This document shows, in pieces, positions 24,857 through 33,789 of a stretch of DNA of 34,909 nucleotides. The stretch is from a virus: positions 1-34,909 of the IMG/VR virus record IMGVR_UViG_3300042260_000321. One strand, written 5' to 3'. Position 1 is the first letter of the stretch. Each line of letters begins with the position of its first letter. The translations under genes were made by a program, and so were the position numbers. The notes under the pieces are model-generated. The model did not search any database, had not been told where the DNA came from, and was given only the letters and a program-made list of their open reading frames with translations.

Positions 24857-25035
24857 CGCACGGGCTTTCCAGCACGCACGGCGGTGTTCAGGGCTGCGGC
24901 CATGTCTTCGGCAACCGAACGCACTTTTGCTTCGTGCATCCGTTTCATACGATGTTCAGCGGGCGTTGCCTCGCGTGCCTTCGTAGATGGCCTGGCTGAT
25001 ACTGCCGCTTCGGTAGGCTTTTTCGAGTGCATCAT
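24853..25035 (-). CDS. Small basic protein overlapping the kinase gene
   Basis: 60-aa protein, basic and Ala-rich, with a predicted helix at about 28-55 (HRMKRMHEAKVRSVAEDMAA). The start at 25035 (or the next codon, 25032) has a good ribosome site, AAAAGGA, 4-7 nt away, even though it lies inside the kinase-like gene, so about 80 nt are read in two frames. No family is recognised. Its position at the 3' end of a zeta-like gene makes a regulatory partner conceivable, but nothing in the sequence shows this. Confidence 0.6.
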   Translation of the reverse strand: MMHSKKPTEAAVSARPSTKAREATPAEHRMKRMHEAKVRSVAEDMAAALNTAVRAGKPVR

Positions 25036-25882
25036 TTAGTCCTTTTCTCACTTCATTGTGATCCAGGCGGGGCAGCTTGTCAAGTCCGCTTACAACGGCA
25101 GCCTTTCCTGGGCCGCGGCTATTGTCGATGACCATCATGTGGAATCGGTGATCGTCGCCGTATTTTTCTTGCAGCCGATCCATTACCTCACGCGAACCCA
25201 TATGCGTGCGGAAATGTTCGTCAATGGGTACGGTGCGCCCTGTCCCCATTTCGGCTTCCATGCGGCTGGCGCGTTTAAGGGCGCCACCTTCCATGGCTTC
25301 TACGGGGTCGCGGTACGTGTACACGATGCCGACCTTGCGGCCAGCTTTCAGCGCCTGGTCAATTTTCTTGTCGGCTGAATCAAACGAATTCATGTTGGTG
25401 TCGTACACCATTTCCGCGTCGCGGATGCCCTGGCTCACCTTTTGGGCCTCTTGCAGTCCCGTGGTCTTGCCAGCCCCTGTTCCACCAGCGGTGAAAAGCA
25501 CGGTGTTGTCCATGCCTGGGGGCGTTGGTTTTGACAGCCTGTCGGCGTACATCTGTTTGACAAATGCCGATGACGGCTCATGCACGTCGGCCGACTTGGT
25601 GCGATCCATCCGGTATTCGGGCGACATCTCGCGGGCATCGTCCGTGTTCAGAATGCGGCCGTTGTCCGTGGATGGCAACGCCGCATACTCTGACGCCAGG
25701 CCAGGGTAATCACTGGCTAGGCGCTCAAAGTAAGATTGCTCAATCGGGTTGGCCGATTGACCTGTTTGGGGCAGCGTAGGCTGCGGAACAAGCGATGCCA
25801 GGGCGGCCTGGGTAGGCTGTGCGCCCTGGGCCGCCGCTGGTTGCTGCCCCGCCGCTGCCAGTTGCGACAGCGGGGTGGCCAT
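24956..25882 (-). CDS. Zeta-toxin-like P-loop kinase
   Basis: 308-aa protein. Residues 1-60 are Ala/Gln/Pro-rich and probably disordered. The P-loop GGTGAGKTT (133-141) follows a hydrophobic strand (NTVLFTA). Further on, VYDTNMNSFDSADKKIDQAL resembles the substrate-side region of zeta toxins (PF06414), followed by GIVYTYRDPVEAMEGGALKRA. Zeta toxins phosphorylate UDP-N-acetylglucosamine and poison wall synthesis, but phage relatives may have other substrates. No epsilon-type antitoxin is seen upstream. The start at 25882 is set by the TAATG junction; a longer frame from 25918 exists. The fold call is good; the substrate is unknown. Confidence 0.8.
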   Translation of the reverse strand: MATPLSQLAAAGQQPAAAQGAQPTQAALASLVPQPTLPQTGQSANPIEQSYFERLASDYPGLASEYAALPSTDNGRILNTDDAREMSPEYRMDRTKSADVHEPSSAFVKQMYADRLSKPTPPGMDNTVLFTAGGTGAGKTTGLQEAQKVSQGIRDAEMVYDTNMNSFDSADKKIDQALKAGRKVGIVYTYRDPVEAMEGGALKRASRMEAEMGTGRTVPIDEHFRTHMGSREVMDRLQEKYGDDHRFHMMVIDNSRGPGKAAVVSGLDKLPRLDHNEVRKGLNDALEKAYRSGSISQAIYEGTRGNAR

Positions 25883-26103
25883 TACTTCTGGTAGCTGCTG
25901 CGGCCGTGGGTGTAGCAAACGCCCTTGCTGCGGCCGCCGTCAAACTTGTGATCGGCGCCGGTTGCATCGGCCTTGCCCATGCCAACGCCGTTCTTGACGC
26001 TGCCGGTGCGCTCACCGGATTTGTCGCTGGCAGCAGCGCCAGCGGGCGCCTTGGCGCTTGTACCGTAGCCTGCGGGCTGCATTTCGGCGTTATCTTTTTT
26101 CAT
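25882..26103 (-). CDS. Small Gly/Lys-rich phage protein
   Basis: 73-aa, polar, Gly/Ala/Lys-rich and probably disordered, with a more distinctive C-terminus: HKFDGGRSKGVCYTHGRSSY (about 52-71). That ending recurs in small proteins upstream of terminase or zeta-like genes in other phages, so it seems conserved, but no function is known to me. The stop forms TAATG with the kinase-like gene. Confidence 0.65.
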   Translation of the reverse strand: MKKDNAEMQPAGYGTSAKAPAGAAASDKSGERTGSVKNGVGMGKADATGADHKFDGGRSKGVCYTHGRSSYQK

Positions 26104-26884: not shown

Positions 26885-27008
26885 AAACTTTTTCGATTGT
26901 TGAAAACCTGTGCAAATTGCCGCATTCGTAACGGCGGTGCTTTTGGTTATCAGGTTTTTTGCGTGTCTCTTTTACCAACGTCCAAGCCCCGCATTCAGGA
27001 CAATTCAT
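26823..27008 (-). CDS. NrdR-like zinc-ribbon protein
   Basis: 61-aa protein: MNCPECGAW at the start (Cys3, Cys6), then HRRYECGNLHRFSTIEKV (24-41), with Cys29 and His33 as the second ligand pair. This resembles the N-terminal zinc ribbon of NrdR, without its ATP-cone. The C-terminus is basic. It is probably a small DNA-binding regulator or a nuclease partner. It overlaps the NinB stop as ATGA and runs 62 nt into the HNH gene. Confidence 0.75.
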   Translation of the reverse strand: MNCPECGAWTLVKETRKKPDNQKHRRYECGNLHRFSTIEKVYDSKTPLRKKQKAVAPGRQP

Positions 27009-27406
27009 GCTTCTATTCCCTTTTCAGCGCACCAGGCCAGCAACCATTCGATAAATTCGGTGGCGTCTGGAATTGTGAATTTGTGTGTTTGCCAACCCAA
27101 CTGGACAACGCGCTGGCCATCCAAACTGGGCGACACCTTGCCAATCTTACGGTCGGTTTCGTGGGCCCATTGATCAATTAACAGGCGTTTCCAATCGTCG
27201 GCCGACCAAGTGGAACCAGCCGCCCGCATCGCCAGGTAAATCTGGTGAATGATGGCGTGGAACATATCGTTTTGATCCGATGACCTGGTGGCCCGTTTGA
27301 TTTCCAGCCGCATCTTGTGGCCAGCCATCAAGTTGTTTTTGACTTCCGGCCAAATGTTGTCCATCAAAACTTTGGCTTGCTGGGCGTTGTGCAGTTCGTA
27401 AATCAT
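27005..27406 (-). CDS. ninB: NinB-family recombination protein
   Basis: 133-aa protein of the NinB/Orf family (lambda NinB, 146 aa), a recombination mediator that binds single-stranded DNA and helps annealing proteins. Landmarks: NDMFHAIIHQIYLAMRAAGS (46-65), DDWKRLLIDQWAHET (70-84), and the ending FIEWLLAWCAEKGI (about 118-131). It is coupled by ATGA overlaps to the VRR-NUC gene before it and the zinc-ribbon gene after it, forming a recombination cluster. Confidence 0.9.
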   Translation of the reverse strand: MIYELHNAQQAKVLMDNIWPEVKNNLMAGHKMRLEIKRATRSSDQNDMFHAIIHQIYLAMRAAGSTWSADDWKRLLIDQWAHETDRKIGKVSPSLDGQRVVQLGWQTHKFTIPDATEFIEWLLAWCAEKGIEA

Positions 27407-28282: not shown

Positions 28283-29017
28283 TTACTCCTTGATGCCGTG
28301 TGCGGCTTCGATGGCTCGGGCAACTGCACGAAACGAAACCGCATCTGAAACTGTTACGCCATCAATTGTTGCGTTGACTAATTTCCTGATCTGCTCATTC
28401 GTCAGCGGCTTGCGCTGTGCTGGTGCAATCGACAAATGACTGCGTAGTTCATTGGCGAGTCGATATGCCTTCTGTAAATAGCCTTCAGATGGCTCTGGCG
28501 TGGTGTAGCCGCCATATGTTCCTGCATACTTTCCAAGATCGATCTTCGGCTCATGCTTTTTCTTCGCCACAGGCTCCTGCTGTGCTGGTGGGGTGGTGTA
28601 GAGAAGATTGCGACCAACAGGCAGGTCATGCCCCCAATCATCAAACTCTCGCTCACCAATTCCTGAGATAAAGATTGACGCCACAGGCTCCTGCTCTGGC
28701 TGTGCCTTCAAACGCTCGATTTCATCGCCACGTAAATACCATTCACGCTCGAAATGTTCTGTTTGAGAATTTGCCCTTTTAAGGCAATTTGTCAACCTTG
28801 CAATCTCGGTACGCAACTCACATTCTTTGTTCATTTCCTCATGTGGGTGGCTACGTGTGCAGTCGTGCTCTGGCTGTGCCAAGGCTTCTTTGATGGCGGT
28901 GATGGCTGGCTCTATTTTGTCAACGGTGTCTCGGTCAACTTCTTGCCACCAGTAACTATTTGTGTTGTTAAGTTTTTCCAACGCCTCAAGCGCCAGCTTC
29001 AATGCTTCTTTGCTCAT
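28283..29017 (-). CDS. Hypothetical early protein with coiled coil (244 aa)
   Basis: 244-aa mosaic protein. An N-terminal helical part (EALKLALEALEKLNN, 4-18; IKEALAQPEHDC) is typical of a phage family that places this stretch before variable modules. A coiled coil at about 64-105 is followed by EPVASIFISG, LLYTTPPAQQEPV and, at the end, PLTNEQIRKLVN. These phrases recur in mosaic early proteins of betaproteobacterial and enterobacterial phages. No enzymatic motif is seen. The start overlaps the P-like gene stop as ATGA. Confidence 0.72.
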   Translation of the reverse strand: MSKEALKLALEALEKLNNTNSYWWQEVDRDTVDKIEPAITAIKEALAQPEHDCTRSHPHEEMNKECELRTEIARLTNCLKRANSQTEHFEREWYLRGDEIERLKAQPEQEPVASIFISGIGEREFDDWGHDLPVGRNLLYTTPPAQQEPVAKKKHEPKIDLGKYAGTYGGYTTPEPSEGYLQKAYRLANELRSHLSIAPAQRKPLTNEQIRKLVNATIDGVTVSDAVSFRAVARAIEAAHGIKE

Positions 29018-29403
29018 TTGGGCATCCTCATTTGTTGGGTGATTTCGCGCAACTTGGCCAGGGCTTCGGCCTTCGCCTTTTCGGTTGCGATCTTTTCGTG
29101 GACGGTCGGCTGCCTAGTGATCATGGTGTTTGGTTTGTCAGGAATGCGCGGGCCGTCGTTCAGCAGCTTGGCAAACGCCAGGGCCGACGGTGGCCTGTCA
29201 GGGTTCATGTGCTTCAAGGCGTAATCCATCTTTGGGCGGTACGTCAGGGCGCGGCCGCATTCATCCATCCAGGCTTGGCGAATGATGGCGGGGTCGATGT
29301 CGCGCCAGTGATTGGCAAACGTGGCGCCGTAAATGGCGTTCATTTTGGTGAAAATGTAATCAAAGCCGCTGTCGGCATCACAAAAGTCGTTTGCGTTCCA
29401 CAT
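29014..29403 (-). CDS. Replication protein P-like helicase loader
   Basis: 129-aa protein directly after the initiator gene. FDYIFTKMNAIYGATFANHW (14-33), IRQAWMDEC and PPSALAFAKLL (about 71-81) match the pattern of lambda P/DnaT-type helicase-loading proteins, though it is about half the length of lambda P (233 aa). It would bring host DnaB to the origin. It overlaps the initiator gene by 26 nt, giving the O-P order of lambdoid phages. Confidence 0.72.
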   Translation of the reverse strand: MWNANDFCDADSGFDYIFTKMNAIYGATFANHWRDIDPAIIRQAWMDECGRALTYRPKMDYALKHMNPDRPPSALAFAKLLNDGPRIPDKPNTMITRQPTVHEKIATEKAKAEALAKLREITQQMRMPK

Positions 29404-30157
29404 CGGACACCTCCACGGTTTTGTCTGTGGGCTTGGCCCAAAAGTTTGCCGCGGGCTTTGGCGTGGCCAGGCCGCGTGTAAGGGCTGCCATTTGCGTCAA
29501 ACGGGCCTCTGACGCGGTTTTCTTGGCTTGCTGCTGCCGTCGCACCCAATTGCGCCAAGTCGCCGTCCAATCGGTTTTTACGCCCTTTTGGCCAGGCTGG
29601 GCAATCCAGTAATCACGGAACCCGTCAAACGTTTCCCTGGGGTCGAGTTCGGGCCTGTGTTGGCGACAAAAACCAACCCATTCGTCAGACAACTGAAAGT
29701 CAGGGGCCAGGCGCGTGCCGCGTTGGCTCTCTCTCTTTGGTTTCTGGTTATTGGTTATTGGTTCATGGTTACTGGTTGGTTGAACGTCCGTTAAACACAA
29801 ATCCAACGCCTGTTCAACGGACGTTGAACGCCTGTTGAACGCCCGTTTAGCGGCCGATGCCTTGCCAGCCTTGGACGCAATTTCAAGTTGCTGGTGGTAA
29901 TGGTCAATTTCTTTGTCGCAGCGGGTGTGACGCCATACGTTGTTTTCCAACGTAAAAAACATCCCCAGGATTCCGGCCAGCGCATCTTGCTGATCGCGGG
30001 CGTTCACCTTCATGGACAGTTCAAACAGCGAATTTGGCAACGGCTGTTCGGTGTCGTAGTAAATCCACAACAATTTCAAATAAATGCCGACCTCATCATT
30101 TGTCAAAAATGACGTGTCCTTGATGAAATCACCAATGTGATGTTGATAGTAGTGCAT
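29378..30157 (-). CDS. Replication initiator, DUF1376 N-terminal domain (lambda O-like role)
   Basis: 259-aa protein. The N-terminal 90 residues are a DUF1376-type winged-helix domain (HYYQHHIGDF at 2-11, LTNDEVGIYLKLLWIYYD at 18-35). Residues about 103-140 are a polar linker. The C-terminal part, with DEWVGFCRQHRPELDP (158-173) and DWTATWRNWVRRQ (196-208), is common to phage replication proteins. The linker is encoded by iteron-like DNA repeats, as in lambda O. The start at 30157 is chosen for its ribosome site (GGAG, 6 nt spacing); the frame extends to 30244 without such support. It should bind the origin and recruit the P-like loader. Confidence 0.82.
   Translation of the reverse strand: MHYYQHHIGDFIKDTSFLTNDEVGIYLKLLWIYYDTEQPLPNSLFELSMKVNARDQQDALAGILGMFFTLENNVWRHTRCDKEIDHYHQQLEIASKAGKASAAKRAFNRRSTSVEQALDLCLTDVQPTSNHEPITNNQKPKRESQRGTRLAPDFQLSDEWVGFCRQHRPELDPRETFDGFRDYWIAQPGQKGVKTDWTATWRNWVRRQQQAKKTASEARLTQMAALTRGLATPKPAANFWAKPTDKTVEVSDVERKRLL
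29738..29851. other. Candidate replication origin: tandem 7-mers and 11-mers
   Basis: Plus strand, 29738-29779: six head-to-tail 7-mers TGGTTNN (TTC, TAT, TAT, TCA, TAC, TGG as last three bases). From 29783 come 11-bp units AACGNCYGTTN at 29783, 29805, 29816, 29827 and 29838, with a degenerate unit at 29794 filling the register and a weak one at 29849. Neither period is a multiple of three, so the repetition is not a protein repeat. The block lies in the linker-coding part of the initiator gene, the place of lambda ori inside gene O. The T-rich 7-mers may be the unwinding side and the 11-mers the initiator sites. Confidence 0.78.
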
Positions 30158-30171
30158 TGCACGCTCCGCAA

Positions 30172-30237
30172 AACTCCCTGAAAAGAAACACTGGCAGGCG
30201 GGGAGTTCGCTTTTCGGTTGGGTAGCAACTCCCAACC
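30172..30237 (-). promoter_or_regulatory. Competing hairpins between Cro-like and initiator genes (attenuator-like)
   Basis: In the leftward transcript: GGTTGGG (30237-30231) pairs perfectly with CCCAACC (30222-30216). GGGAGTT (30233-30227) pairs perfectly with AACTCCC (30207-30201). A second GGGAGTT (30178-30172) can also pair with that AACTCCC and is followed by TT. The first two stems share bases and exclude each other. This is the layout of an attenuator or antiterminator ahead of the initiator gene, whose ribosome site begins about 6 nt later. Function is inferred. Confidence 0.5.
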
Positions 30238-30257
30238 TAGCCATGTTTCAAACAATT

Positions 30258-30416
30258 CTATCCTTTGAACCACTTGGGCCGCAAGGCCCGCAACTGCCAT
30301 AACCGCGCCTGGGGAACCCTGTCGCCCCATTGGCTGATCGCTTGGCGCGTGATGCCCAGCAGCTTGGCCAACGCAACCGCGCTGCCCGCTTTTTGTATTG
30401 CTTCGTGTGTTTCCAT
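30258..30416 (-). CDS. Cro-like helix-turn-helix repressor (52 aa)
   Basis: 52-aa DNA-binding protein starting METHEAIQKAGSAVALAKLL, with a helix-turn-helix at about 13-37: AVALAKLLGITRQAISQWGD is a typical Cro/YdaS pattern, with TRQAISQW as recognition helix. PQARLWQLRALRPKWF closes the fold, as in P22-type Cro. It is the first leftward gene facing the divergent control region, so it likely represses one or both early promoters. No ribosome site precedes the ATG; instead a promoter ends 6 nt before it, suggesting a leaderless message. A larger frame on the same strand (30248-30454) is a shadow. Confidence 0.87.
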   Translation of the reverse strand: METHEAIQKAGSAVALAKLLGITRQAISQWGDRVPQARLWQLRALRPKWFKG

Positions 30417-30422
30417 GCCGCG

Positions 30423-30451
30423 ATGGTAAGCCACCTTTCGCTTTTTTGCAA
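30423..30451 (-). promoter_or_regulatory. Leftward promoter for the Cro-like gene
   Basis: Minus strand: -35 TTGCAA (30451-30446), 17-nt spacer, -10 TACCAT (30428-30423). The spacer end and -10 (AAAGGTGGCTTACCAT) resemble the core of the rightward promoters (AAAGCGGGCTTACAAT). The start codon lies 6 nt after the -10. The sequence TTTTGCAA on the plus strand occurs at 30444-30451 and again at 30466-30473, 22 bp apart, as might be expected of a regulator site on one DNA face. Confidence 0.55.
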
Positions 30452-30478
30452 CACCTTAAAAAATATTTTGCAAGGGGG

Positions 30479-30508
30479 CTTTACTTTGTTGTAAAGCTGG
30501 CTTACATT
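30479..30508 (+). promoter_or_regulatory. Rightward early promoter A with palindromic operator
   Basis: A perfect inverted repeat CTTTAC-TTTGTT-GTAAAG (30479-30496) overlaps a promoter with -35 TTTACT (30480-30485), 17-nt spacer and -10 TACATT (30503-30508). The 18-nt core from 30491 (GTAAAGCTGGCTTACATT) matches promoters B and C at nearly all positions. The leader contains CCATGCC and a GCCC/GGGT stem before the ribosome site AAGGAG. It drives the first rightward gene. The palindrome is a good candidate site for the Cro-like protein. Confidence 0.62.
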
Positions 30509-30555
30509 ACATCCATGCCCTAGCGAATTGCACGGGGTCTTTTAAGGAGTTCCAA

Positions 30556-30890: not shown

Positions 30891-30910
30891 CTTTTAAAAA
30901 GGAAATTGTG

Positions 30911-31492
30911 ATGACTACATACCTCTCTTGCGCTGACACTGCAAAACTCGTTCGCGCTGCCCTCAAAGAAACATTCCCTGGCGTCAAGTTCAGCGTCAAG
31001 TCCAGCGTTTACGCTGGCGGCGCCAGCATCAACGTGGCGTACACCGACGGCCCATCGGCTGGCCAAGTGGAAGCGGTGGCCAAGGCTTTCCAGGGCGCTT
31101 ACTTTGACGGCATGACCGATTACAAGGGCAGCAACTACAACACGCTGGATGGCCAGGCTGTTCGCTTTGGTGCTGACTTCATTTTTGTCAACCGCAAGTT
31201 CACCGCCCCGACCTTGACCGGCATTGTTGTCCAGGTCTGCAATTACTACGGCTTCGACAACGAAATCCTGATCGACGATGGCAACTCATTTGGCGCGTAC
31301 ATCAAGGCAGTTGGCGCCAACGCTGACAGTGAGGCCCGCGGTTTCACCGCCTACGACATTGACCGGATCATCCGCGATGCTTGCAGCAAGTACAGCAACG
31401 ATGACGGCGCCGAAAGCGCCACCCTGGCCCGTGTCGCCTTTGCTGGTGATGACGGTTACGGATACAACAGCGTCGGCCGCTTGGCCGCATAA
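30911..31492 (+). CDS. LPD29-type domain protein
   Basis: 193-aa early protein. The N-terminal part matches the Large Polyvalent Protein-associated Domain 29 pattern: ADTAKLVRAALKETFPGVKF (8-27), then SVKSSVYAGGASINVAYTDG. LPD29 normally occurs inside very large multi-domain proteins of phages and conjugative elements; here it is almost the whole protein. The remainder has a Tyr/Asp-rich region (FDGMTDYKGSNYN) and a C-terminal helix with YDIDRIIRDACSKY. No catalytic motif is visible. A GTG lies just before the ATG at 30911, but AAGGA spacing favours the ATG. Confidence 0.78.
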   Translation: MTTYLSCADTAKLVRAALKETFPGVKFSVKSSVYAGGASINVAYTDGPSAGQVEAVAKAFQGAYFDGMTDYKGSNYNTLDGQAVRFGADFIFVNRKFTAPTLTGIVVQVCNYYGFDNEILIDDGNSFGAYIKAVGANADSEARGFTAYDIDRIIRDACSKYSNDDGAESATLARVAFAGDDGYGYNSVGRLAA

Positions 31493-32540: not shown

Positions 32541-33161
32541 ATGAAAGTTTATAAAGCAATCAACGCCGTCCAGGCTGAATTGTCCACGGTAGGCATCACC
32601 AAAGACCGTCGCAATATGCAAGGCAGCGGTTACAACTTCCGCGGCATTGATGATGTTTACAACACCATTTCGCCTTTGCTGGCCAAACATGGTTTGTGCA
32701 TTTTGCCCCGCGTGCTGGCGCGTGAATGTATTGAACGCGTCAGCCAAAAGGGCGGCGCGTTGTTTTACATCACCGTTGAAGTCGAATTCGATTTTGTATC
32801 TGCTGAAGATGGCTCCAAACACACCGTGAAAACGTTTGGTGAAGCAATGGACAGCGGCGACAAAGCCACCAACAAAGCAATGTCAGCCGCTTATAAATAC
32901 GCCGCATTCCAGGCGTTCAGCATTCCAACAGAAGCGGACAACGATGCTGACGCGCACACGCATTCTGTTGCTGCTGTGCCTGACATTACCGACCACTTGG
33001 CTGCAATTGACGCAAGCGCCAGCAGCGACGAATTGGCGGCCGTTTACAAAACAGCGTTTGAGGCTTGCCAGGGCAACCAGGCATTGCAAGCCAAAGTAAT
33101 GGCAGCCAAAAAAGTTCGCGTGGCCCGTGCCAAAAAAGATTTATCAACCAAAGGAAACTGA
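32541..33161 (+). CDS. erf: ERF-family single-strand annealing protein
   Basis: 206-aa recombinase of the ERF family (P22 Erf, 204 aa), which anneals complementary single strands and helps circularise or repair phage DNA. Landmarks: YNFRGIDDVYN (31-41), then SPLLAKHGLCILP (44-56), and GEAMDSGDKATNKAMSAAYK (101-120), the best conserved family segment. The C-terminal third is variable and helical. It forms a pair with the YqaJ-type exonuclease next to it, equivalent to lambda Red. Confidence 0.92.
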   Translation: MKVYKAINAVQAELSTVGITKDRRNMQGSGYNFRGIDDVYNTISPLLAKHGLCILPRVLARECIERVSQKGGALFYITVEVEFDFVSAEDGSKHTVKTFGEAMDSGDKATNKAMSAAYKYAAFQAFSIPTEADNDADAHTHSVAAVPDITDHLAAIDASASSDELAAVYKTAFEACQGNQALQAKVMAAKKVRVARAKKDLSTKGN

Positions 33162-33162
33162 A

Positions 33163-33789
33163 ATGACCGACGAAATCGAACAACGTACCGACGAATGGTT
33201 TGCCGCCCGCCTGGGCAAGGTCACCGCATCCAAAGTGGCCGACGTGATGGCCCGCACAAAATCGGGTTACAGCGCCAGCCGCGAAAACTACATGGCCCAA
33301 CTGGTGGTCGAACAAATCACCGGCACGCGCCAGGAATCGTTCAGCAACAGCGCGATGCAATGGGGAACCGACCAGGAACCCTTTGCCCGCGGCGCGTATG
33401 AAGCGGCCACCGGCAACATGGTGGACGAAACCGGCTTTATGAACCACCCGACCATCGCCATGGCTGGCGCGTCACCCGACGGCCTGATTGGCGACGATGG
33501 CTGCGTGGAAATCAAGTGCCCCAACACGGCCACCATGATTGAAACGCTTTTGACCGGCACTGTGCCGCAAAAGTATTTCACGCAAATGCAAATGCAAATG
33601 GCCTGTGCTGGCCGTGCCTGGTGCGACTACGTGGTGTTTGATCCACGTATGCCCGCCAAGGCGCAATTGTTCATCAAGCGCGTTCTGCGTGATGACGTTT
33701 TCATCGCTGACATGGAAGCGGAAATTGTCAAGTTCCTGGCCGAAACCGCGGTCAAGGTCGATCAACTGAAAAAACTTATTGGGGAATAA
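33163..33789 (+). CDS. YqaJ-type recombination exonuclease
   Basis: 208-aa nuclease of the lambda-exonuclease fold. Landmarks: WFAARLGKVTAS (12-23), WGTDQEP (67-73, Glu72), SPDGLIG (104-110, Asp106), VEIKCP (115-120, Glu116 and Lys118), then QMQMQM (141-146). It should degrade the 5' strand of duplex ends and supply the 3' tails used by the ERF protein. The start at 33163 has AAAGGAAACTGAA upstream; a longer frame from 33127 lies inside the ERF gene. Confidence 0.92.
   Translation: MTDEIEQRTDEWFAARLGKVTASKVADVMARTKSGYSASRENYMAQLVVEQITGTRQESFSNSAMQWGTDQEPFARGAYEAATGNMVDETGFMNHPTIAMAGASPDGLIGDDGCVEIKCPNTATMIETLLTGTVPQKYFTQMQMQMACAGRAWCDYVVFDPRMPAKAQLFIKRVLRDDVFIADMEAEIVKFLAETAVKVDQLKKLIGE

Follow-up and report, generated by a model that had tools for sequence, protein, structure and literature searches.

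A two-part repeat array in the linker-coding region of a DUF1376 phage initiator gene as a likely replication origin

Replication origins that lie within initiator genes are already known. The origin of phage lambda is located in gene O and combines inverted repeats with 40 bp of A+T-rich DNA (PMC5043065). In RepA_N plasmids of the pSK41 type, the origin lies in the rep gene of a DnaD-like protein with a winged-helix N-domain and an origin-encoded linker, and in pPR9 the N-domain and the origin swap as one unit (PMC5703833). Winged-helix Rep proteins have been described that bind iterons and strand-specific single-strand repeats simultaneously (PMC4081077). We analysed a 34,909-bp virus record (IMG/VR IMGVR_UViG_3300042260_000321, positions 1 to 34,909; hereafter the window) in which an earlier note had proposed iterons and an unwinding element inside an initiator gene, as in lambda O. 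This proposal remains the best-supported reading. Very likely the stretch of the phage's own initiator gene that codes for the linker doubles as its replication origin, in which 11-bp units bind the initiator, 7-bp units melt and the C-domain plausibly holds the single strand for helicase loading; the origin function itself is inferred.

On the plus strand, TGGTT starts at 29738, 29745, 29752, 29759, 29766 and 29773, all in one 7-bp register. These six starts were read directly in the sequence and bear out the perfect register reported in the earlier note; a seventh TGGTT at 29777 is offset by 4 from it. On the coding (−) strand the units read AACCANN, and the tandem array of six in-register units plus a junction AACCA spans 29738–29781 and is our proposed DNA unwinding element. 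An 11-bp iteron lattice adjoins it at 29782–29847 (−), with good units at 29837–29847, 29826–29836, 29815–29825, 29804–29814 and 29782–29792, and a degenerate unit at 29793–29803. The corresponding plus-strand starts are 29783, 29794 (degenerate, AACACAAATCC), 29805, 29816, 29827 and 29838. The unit positions had been given correctly before; the consensus AACGNCYGTTN had not, as it excludes the unit at 29816 (AACGGACGTTG). All five good units match AACRNNCGTTS on the coding strand. Read along that strand, the order is the protein tail AGKASAAKR, then AACGGGCGTTC AACAGGCGTTC AACGTCCGTTG AACAGGCGTTG, the degenerate unit, AACGGACGTTC, AACC and six copies of AACCANN. Shuffled windows gave an expectation of 0.00 for three or more in-register 7-mers (4 overlapping matches observed) and of 0.00 for two adjacent 11-mers plus AAC. 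We confirmed that the array in the window is real and far above chance.

The initiator gene occupies 29378–30244 (−) and encodes a DUF1376 N-domain and a DnaT-like C-domain. Its real start is probably the ATG at 30157, which is Met30 of the longest ORF; the conserved MHYYQ block begins there, with GGAG ~8 nt upstream. Counted from this start, the array does lie within the initiator linker at residues ~103–140, as had been claimed. The protein matched DUF1376 (PF07120) over positions 1–86 of 86 (E = 6e-22; 78.3 bits against a cut-off of 30.1) and so met our membership criterion, a domain score above the Pfam gathering cut-off. PHROG matches were to "primosomal protein" (1.8e-39) and "replication initiation protein" (1.5e-12). 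There was no match to Phage_rep_O, Pfam giving only DUF1376 and a sub-threshold DnaT, and PDB sequence searches found no relative.

AlphaFold modelled the N- and C-domains confidently and the linker between them at low confidence. The N-domain (29879–30157, −; pLDDT 91–98 for residues 11–100) is predicted to form a winged helix that closes with a long helix. Its VIA-align rows (model residues 7–93) were mostly winged-helix proteins with a best Z of 6.7. Such middling fold matches are common to many winged helices, including DNA-bound RepA_N initiators: unrelated winged helices scored level with 5kbj (Z 5.3) and 4pta (Z 5.0), and Pfam gave no RepA_N match. The long C-terminal helix of this domain carries a basic tail, ASKAGKASAAKR (29843–29878, −), which we propose as the specificity determinant of the 11-mers. 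The C-domain (29516–29731, −; pLDDT over 90 for residues 11–60) is predicted to have a DnaT-like single-strand-DNA-binding fold. Its top three VIA matches were all DnaT (Z 5.7 with rmsd 3.4 over 63 aligned residues, 5.4 and 4.3; next 3.6; all below 8), and one of these three structures contains single-stranded DNA. The match to Pfam DnaT was below the cut-off (E = 0.052).

A Cro/YdaS-like regulator lies upstream of the initiator (30258–30416, −; P22_Cro E = 4e-13, YdaS 3e-8). Overlapping the end of the initiator gene is a 129-aa gene in the position of a helicase loader (29014–29403, −), and its homologues directly follow the initiator in the loci of 13 relatives. The earlier description of this gene as P-like found no family support: Pfam, PHROG and NCBIfam gave no match, so no P or DnaC family can be assigned, and there was one weak phage match. 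Gene order around the initiator is as in Rac ydaS-ydaT-ydaU-ydaV. The Cro/YdaS-like gene and the 129-aa gene are reminiscent of lambda and Rac in their arrangement alone. Elsewhere in the window, a Zeta-toxin kinase domain (E 5e-13) is present in the protein encoded at 24956–25918 (−), and 30908–31492 (+) encodes an LPD29 domain (E 8e-25), typical of large polyvalent proteins, alone in a 194-aa ORF. Genes for an ERF annealing protein and, after it, a YqaJ exonuclease form a recombination module at 32541–33789 (+), on the strand opposite to the initiator. A 25-bp tandem repeat (27089–27144; 2.3 copies, 71% match) sits within a NinB/Orf-like gene at 27005–27406.

The block is present in hundreds of other phages. 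About 80 relatives from the protein search keep the 7-mers in the same place, almost without exception. A DNA-pattern search that ignored the protein returned at least 120 contigs with the array. Among the matches listed, 118 of 120 arrays lay inside a same-strand ORF, and 117 of these 118 shared the DUF1376 N-domain, with C-domains in at least 10 clusters. Carriers include Moraxella Mcat phages, Methylophilaceae phage P19250A and phages of Acinetobacter, Vibrio, Psychrobacter and Thalassomonas. Three weak matches were all that a plasmid collection yielded.

A search for three adjacent 11-mers gave 86 distinct loci. The 11-bp units were found in DUF1376 and in Lin1244_N proteins, which are distant relatives by profile comparison. 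We observed a significant short tandem repeat downstream of the 11-mers in 73 of the 86 loci, compared with 7 of 86 for an upstream control stretch; periods were mostly 7, 5 and 6. The short-repeat unit was clade-dependent (AACCANN, AAGCCAG, AACCAG, AAACANN, ACAGAT, AAAGN, AAACAG or ACCCATN). Other palindromes, AACCCAGTCGGTT and AAATCAGATCTG among them, also preceded AACCANN arrays. In the DUF1376 gene of Bordetella phage vB_BaM-IFTN2 (L289, 3031–3849), the 6-bp repeat AACCAG stands behind AACGGCTGTTC-type units. One locus, L011, is a natural chimera with window-like 7-mers, C-domain and downstream gene, and with another N-domain class and palindrome (AACCCAGTGGGTT). We rejected it as a case of the window N-domain with another iteron, the N-domain itself being of another class.

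Spacing between the two blocks was fixed in helical phase. In 94 of 96 loci, the distance from the last 11-mer to the start of the first in-register 7-mer was 4, 15 or 26 bp (4 modulo 11). At 157 of 159 loci the 7-mer block formed a weaker duplex than the DNA around it (P = 2e-27, Wilcoxon), and the 11-mer region was among the most stable bins. In the window, the 7-mer block is at the 98th percentile of the phage's 40-bp windows for low duplex stability; its G+C content is 40% against 55% for the genome, and it is not a strong A+T island. The weak duplex and the fixed phase support the earlier suggestion that the TGGTT side is the unwinding element. Cumulative GC skew, named in the earlier note as a check, peaked near 27 kb and not at the array, and gives the origin no support. 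This measure is uninformative here because gene orientation confounds it, the genes diverging near 30.5 kb.

We observed that the upstream palindrome co-varies with the tail of the N-domain helix. For 173 AACCANN initiators, the table of tail class against palindrome was nearly diagonal: the tail AGxxS[AGF] occurred in 96 of 99 initiators with AACRNNYGTT compared to 0 of 74 with other palindromes. No true cross-class pairing was found among the defined classes, the remainder being motif-less loci and one single chance match. In the 11-mer-selected set, 81 of 86 loci had the AGxxS[AGF] tail, and 2 of the 5 exceptions lacked an initiator ORF. The pairing holds across Lin1244_N and DUF1376, with L381 as an unexplained exception. 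N-domains with as much as 87% identity over 82 residues (L189 and L202) nevertheless differ in both tail and palindrome. On the N-domain tree, tail class A changes 12 times and palindrome A likewise 12; only 3 independent switches of tail and palindrome fall on well-supported branches, all concordant. Only the window palindrome was defined in advance; palindrome classes B–F, like the exact tail pattern, come from the same data. Part of the correlation is kept by linkage alone, because the tail codons abut the iterons and are co-inherited with them.

From these observations we infer how the origin may work. DUF1376 initiators would bind the 11-bp palindromic units AACRNNYGTT, probably as dimers, and with one unit per helical turn they would be stacked along a single side of the double helix. 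The basic tail AGKASAAKR of the long N-domain helix is predicted to decide which palindrome is read. The assembled complex would then melt the AACCANN array beside it, which is the weaker duplex and differs between its two strands, and the melted strand could plausibly be held by the DnaT-like C-domain, leading to helicase loading. We assign binding to the 11-mers and melting to the 7-mers because the 11-mers co-vary with the helix tail and the 7-mers are constant, and because of the low stability of the 7-mers and the fixed phase between the blocks. Origin function, initiator binding, melting and helicase loading are all inferred; we found no binding, footprint or replication data for any member in the literature. 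Going further, we suggest tentatively, as a possibility that may or may not hold, that the locus embodies a modular specificity code: a shared winged-helix domain would read the adjacent palindromic iteron through its short basic helix tail, tail and binding site would move together between phages of distant hosts in a cassette of ~150 bp, and the phased 5–7-nt repeat would be a strand-specific single-strand track for the DnaT-like domain.

Because the array itself codes for protein, the correct null is synonymous codon resampling. In 1000 synonymous resamplings of the window linker, the observed 5 seven-mer pairs and 5 eleven-mers were never reached. Across 67 distinct relatives, we observed 275 seven-mer pairs compared to 15 expected (maximum 33) and 177 eleven-mers compared to 11 expected (maximum 21). 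Proline codons within the array were CCA in 140 of 140 cases, compared to 38% elsewhere. The repeats could instead be read as the by-product of a hydrophilic, repetitive linker selected as protein (NHKPITN heptads, STxVQ motifs), since nearly all arrays sit within a linker and the heptad of the peptide is kept, as 7 and 3 are coprime. Synonymous resampling and the codon choice largely refute this reading, to which we give hardly any credence: a coding by-product is ruled out, and the earlier inference that selection acts on DNA is upheld. Arrays also occur in DNA without an initiator ORF, in three metagenomic loci. One (L397) is in an intergenic stretch, after a stop codon, and the others (L310 and L360) combine 11-mers with ACCCATT repeats where no initiator can be recognised; no initiator was found elsewhere on these contigs, which are only 5–10 kb fragments. 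The sequence features expected of a lambda-like origin are present, namely tandem repeats in the initiator linker under DNA constraint and an adjacent low-stability stretch, and that the initiator binds them and replication starts there is inferred. The possibility that the array is a recombination hot spot or a slippage product at a domain-swap junction draws on the fact that C-domains and iteron cassettes do swap around it, as in L011. Slippage should make the two free positions of the 7-mer uniform, yet these vary widely and freely among relatives while AACCA is fixed, and the fixed phase with the 11-mers would be left unexplained; we consider this origin of the array highly improbable.

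The roles of the two blocks could also be reversed, with the 7-mers as the main initiator-binding sites, tracking DUF1376, and the 11-mers accessory. AACCANN accompanies DUF1376 in nearly every listed case whatever the C-domain, and the 7-mers persist where the 11-mers have been replaced (L011). We nevertheless judge this assignment unlikely: it is the palindromes and not the 7-mers that co-vary with the initiator tail, the same 11-mers accompany entirely different short repeats, and the 7-mers have no dyad symmetry and form a weak duplex. Being palindromic and close to a Cro-like gene, the 11-mers might instead serve the neighbouring Cro/YdaS-like regulator as operators, or act in autoregulation of the gene. 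No unit occurs in the cro-side promoter region (30417–30555), however, and the sole 11-mer match outside the lattice, at 30038, is inside the gene. The palindrome follows the initiator's own tail, and an operator role would leave the phase-fixed, attached short repeat unexplained. This makes regulatory sites very unlikely, and an origin with initiator-binding 11-mers and melting 7-mers remains our preferred reading.

Origin recognition is a likely function for DUF1376 and, by extension, Lin1244_N, widespread phage families without a tested role. The repeats offer a sequence signature for locating replication origins in many uncultured temperate phages. Should tail and palindrome truly form a recognition code, one could predict from it which phages are compatible in replication, and it would provide a small, testable system for the evolution of initiator specificity, with site and reader encoded side by side. 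We found no earlier description of these repeats in the open-access literature (subscription papers were outside our scope). As far as our searches reach, what is new is the two motifs as a pair, their occurrence in two domain families, a short repeat that differs by clade, the constant phase between the blocks and the pairing of tail with palindrome.

YdaU of the Rac prophage shares the DUF1376 domain, the AGKAS tail and degenerate AACNNNTGTT units followed by AAAGATACAGATAAAGAT repeats, and differs in its short repeat and C-domain. Presumably ydaU also contains the Rac origin oriJ; the relevant papers that we found mention only that oriJ exists. E. coli Rac-type YdaU matches (L276–L283 and L285) were longer by ~340 nt, and the DNA that comes after their repeats is different. 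As in RepA_N plasmids, a winged-helix N-domain would bind boxes in the middle of its own gene within a DnaD-like primosomal architecture (PMC5703833), whereas we found no sequence relation and only weak fold similarity, and those systems have other boxes and belong to Firmicutes plasmids. RK2 TrfA, along with the DnaA-trio idea, offers a precedent for an iteron-bound initiator that also reads one-strand repeats of the melted element (PMC4081077). The RK2 repeats are 13-mers rather than 5–7-mers, a DnaT-like domain here replaces the second winged helix, and single-strand binding is here only proposed. Like phage lambda, the locus would have its origin in the initiator gene, with palindromic iterons bound by the initiator, then ~40 bp that melt, and a cro-like gene upstream (PMC5043065). 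In lambda, by contrast, the iterons are four inverted repeats of ~19 bp and the melting stretch is simply A+T-rich, where this locus has an 11-bp lattice and a strand-asymmetric 5–7-bp tandem repeat, and the initiator here is DUF1376, not Phage_rep_O, with no P homologue recognised.
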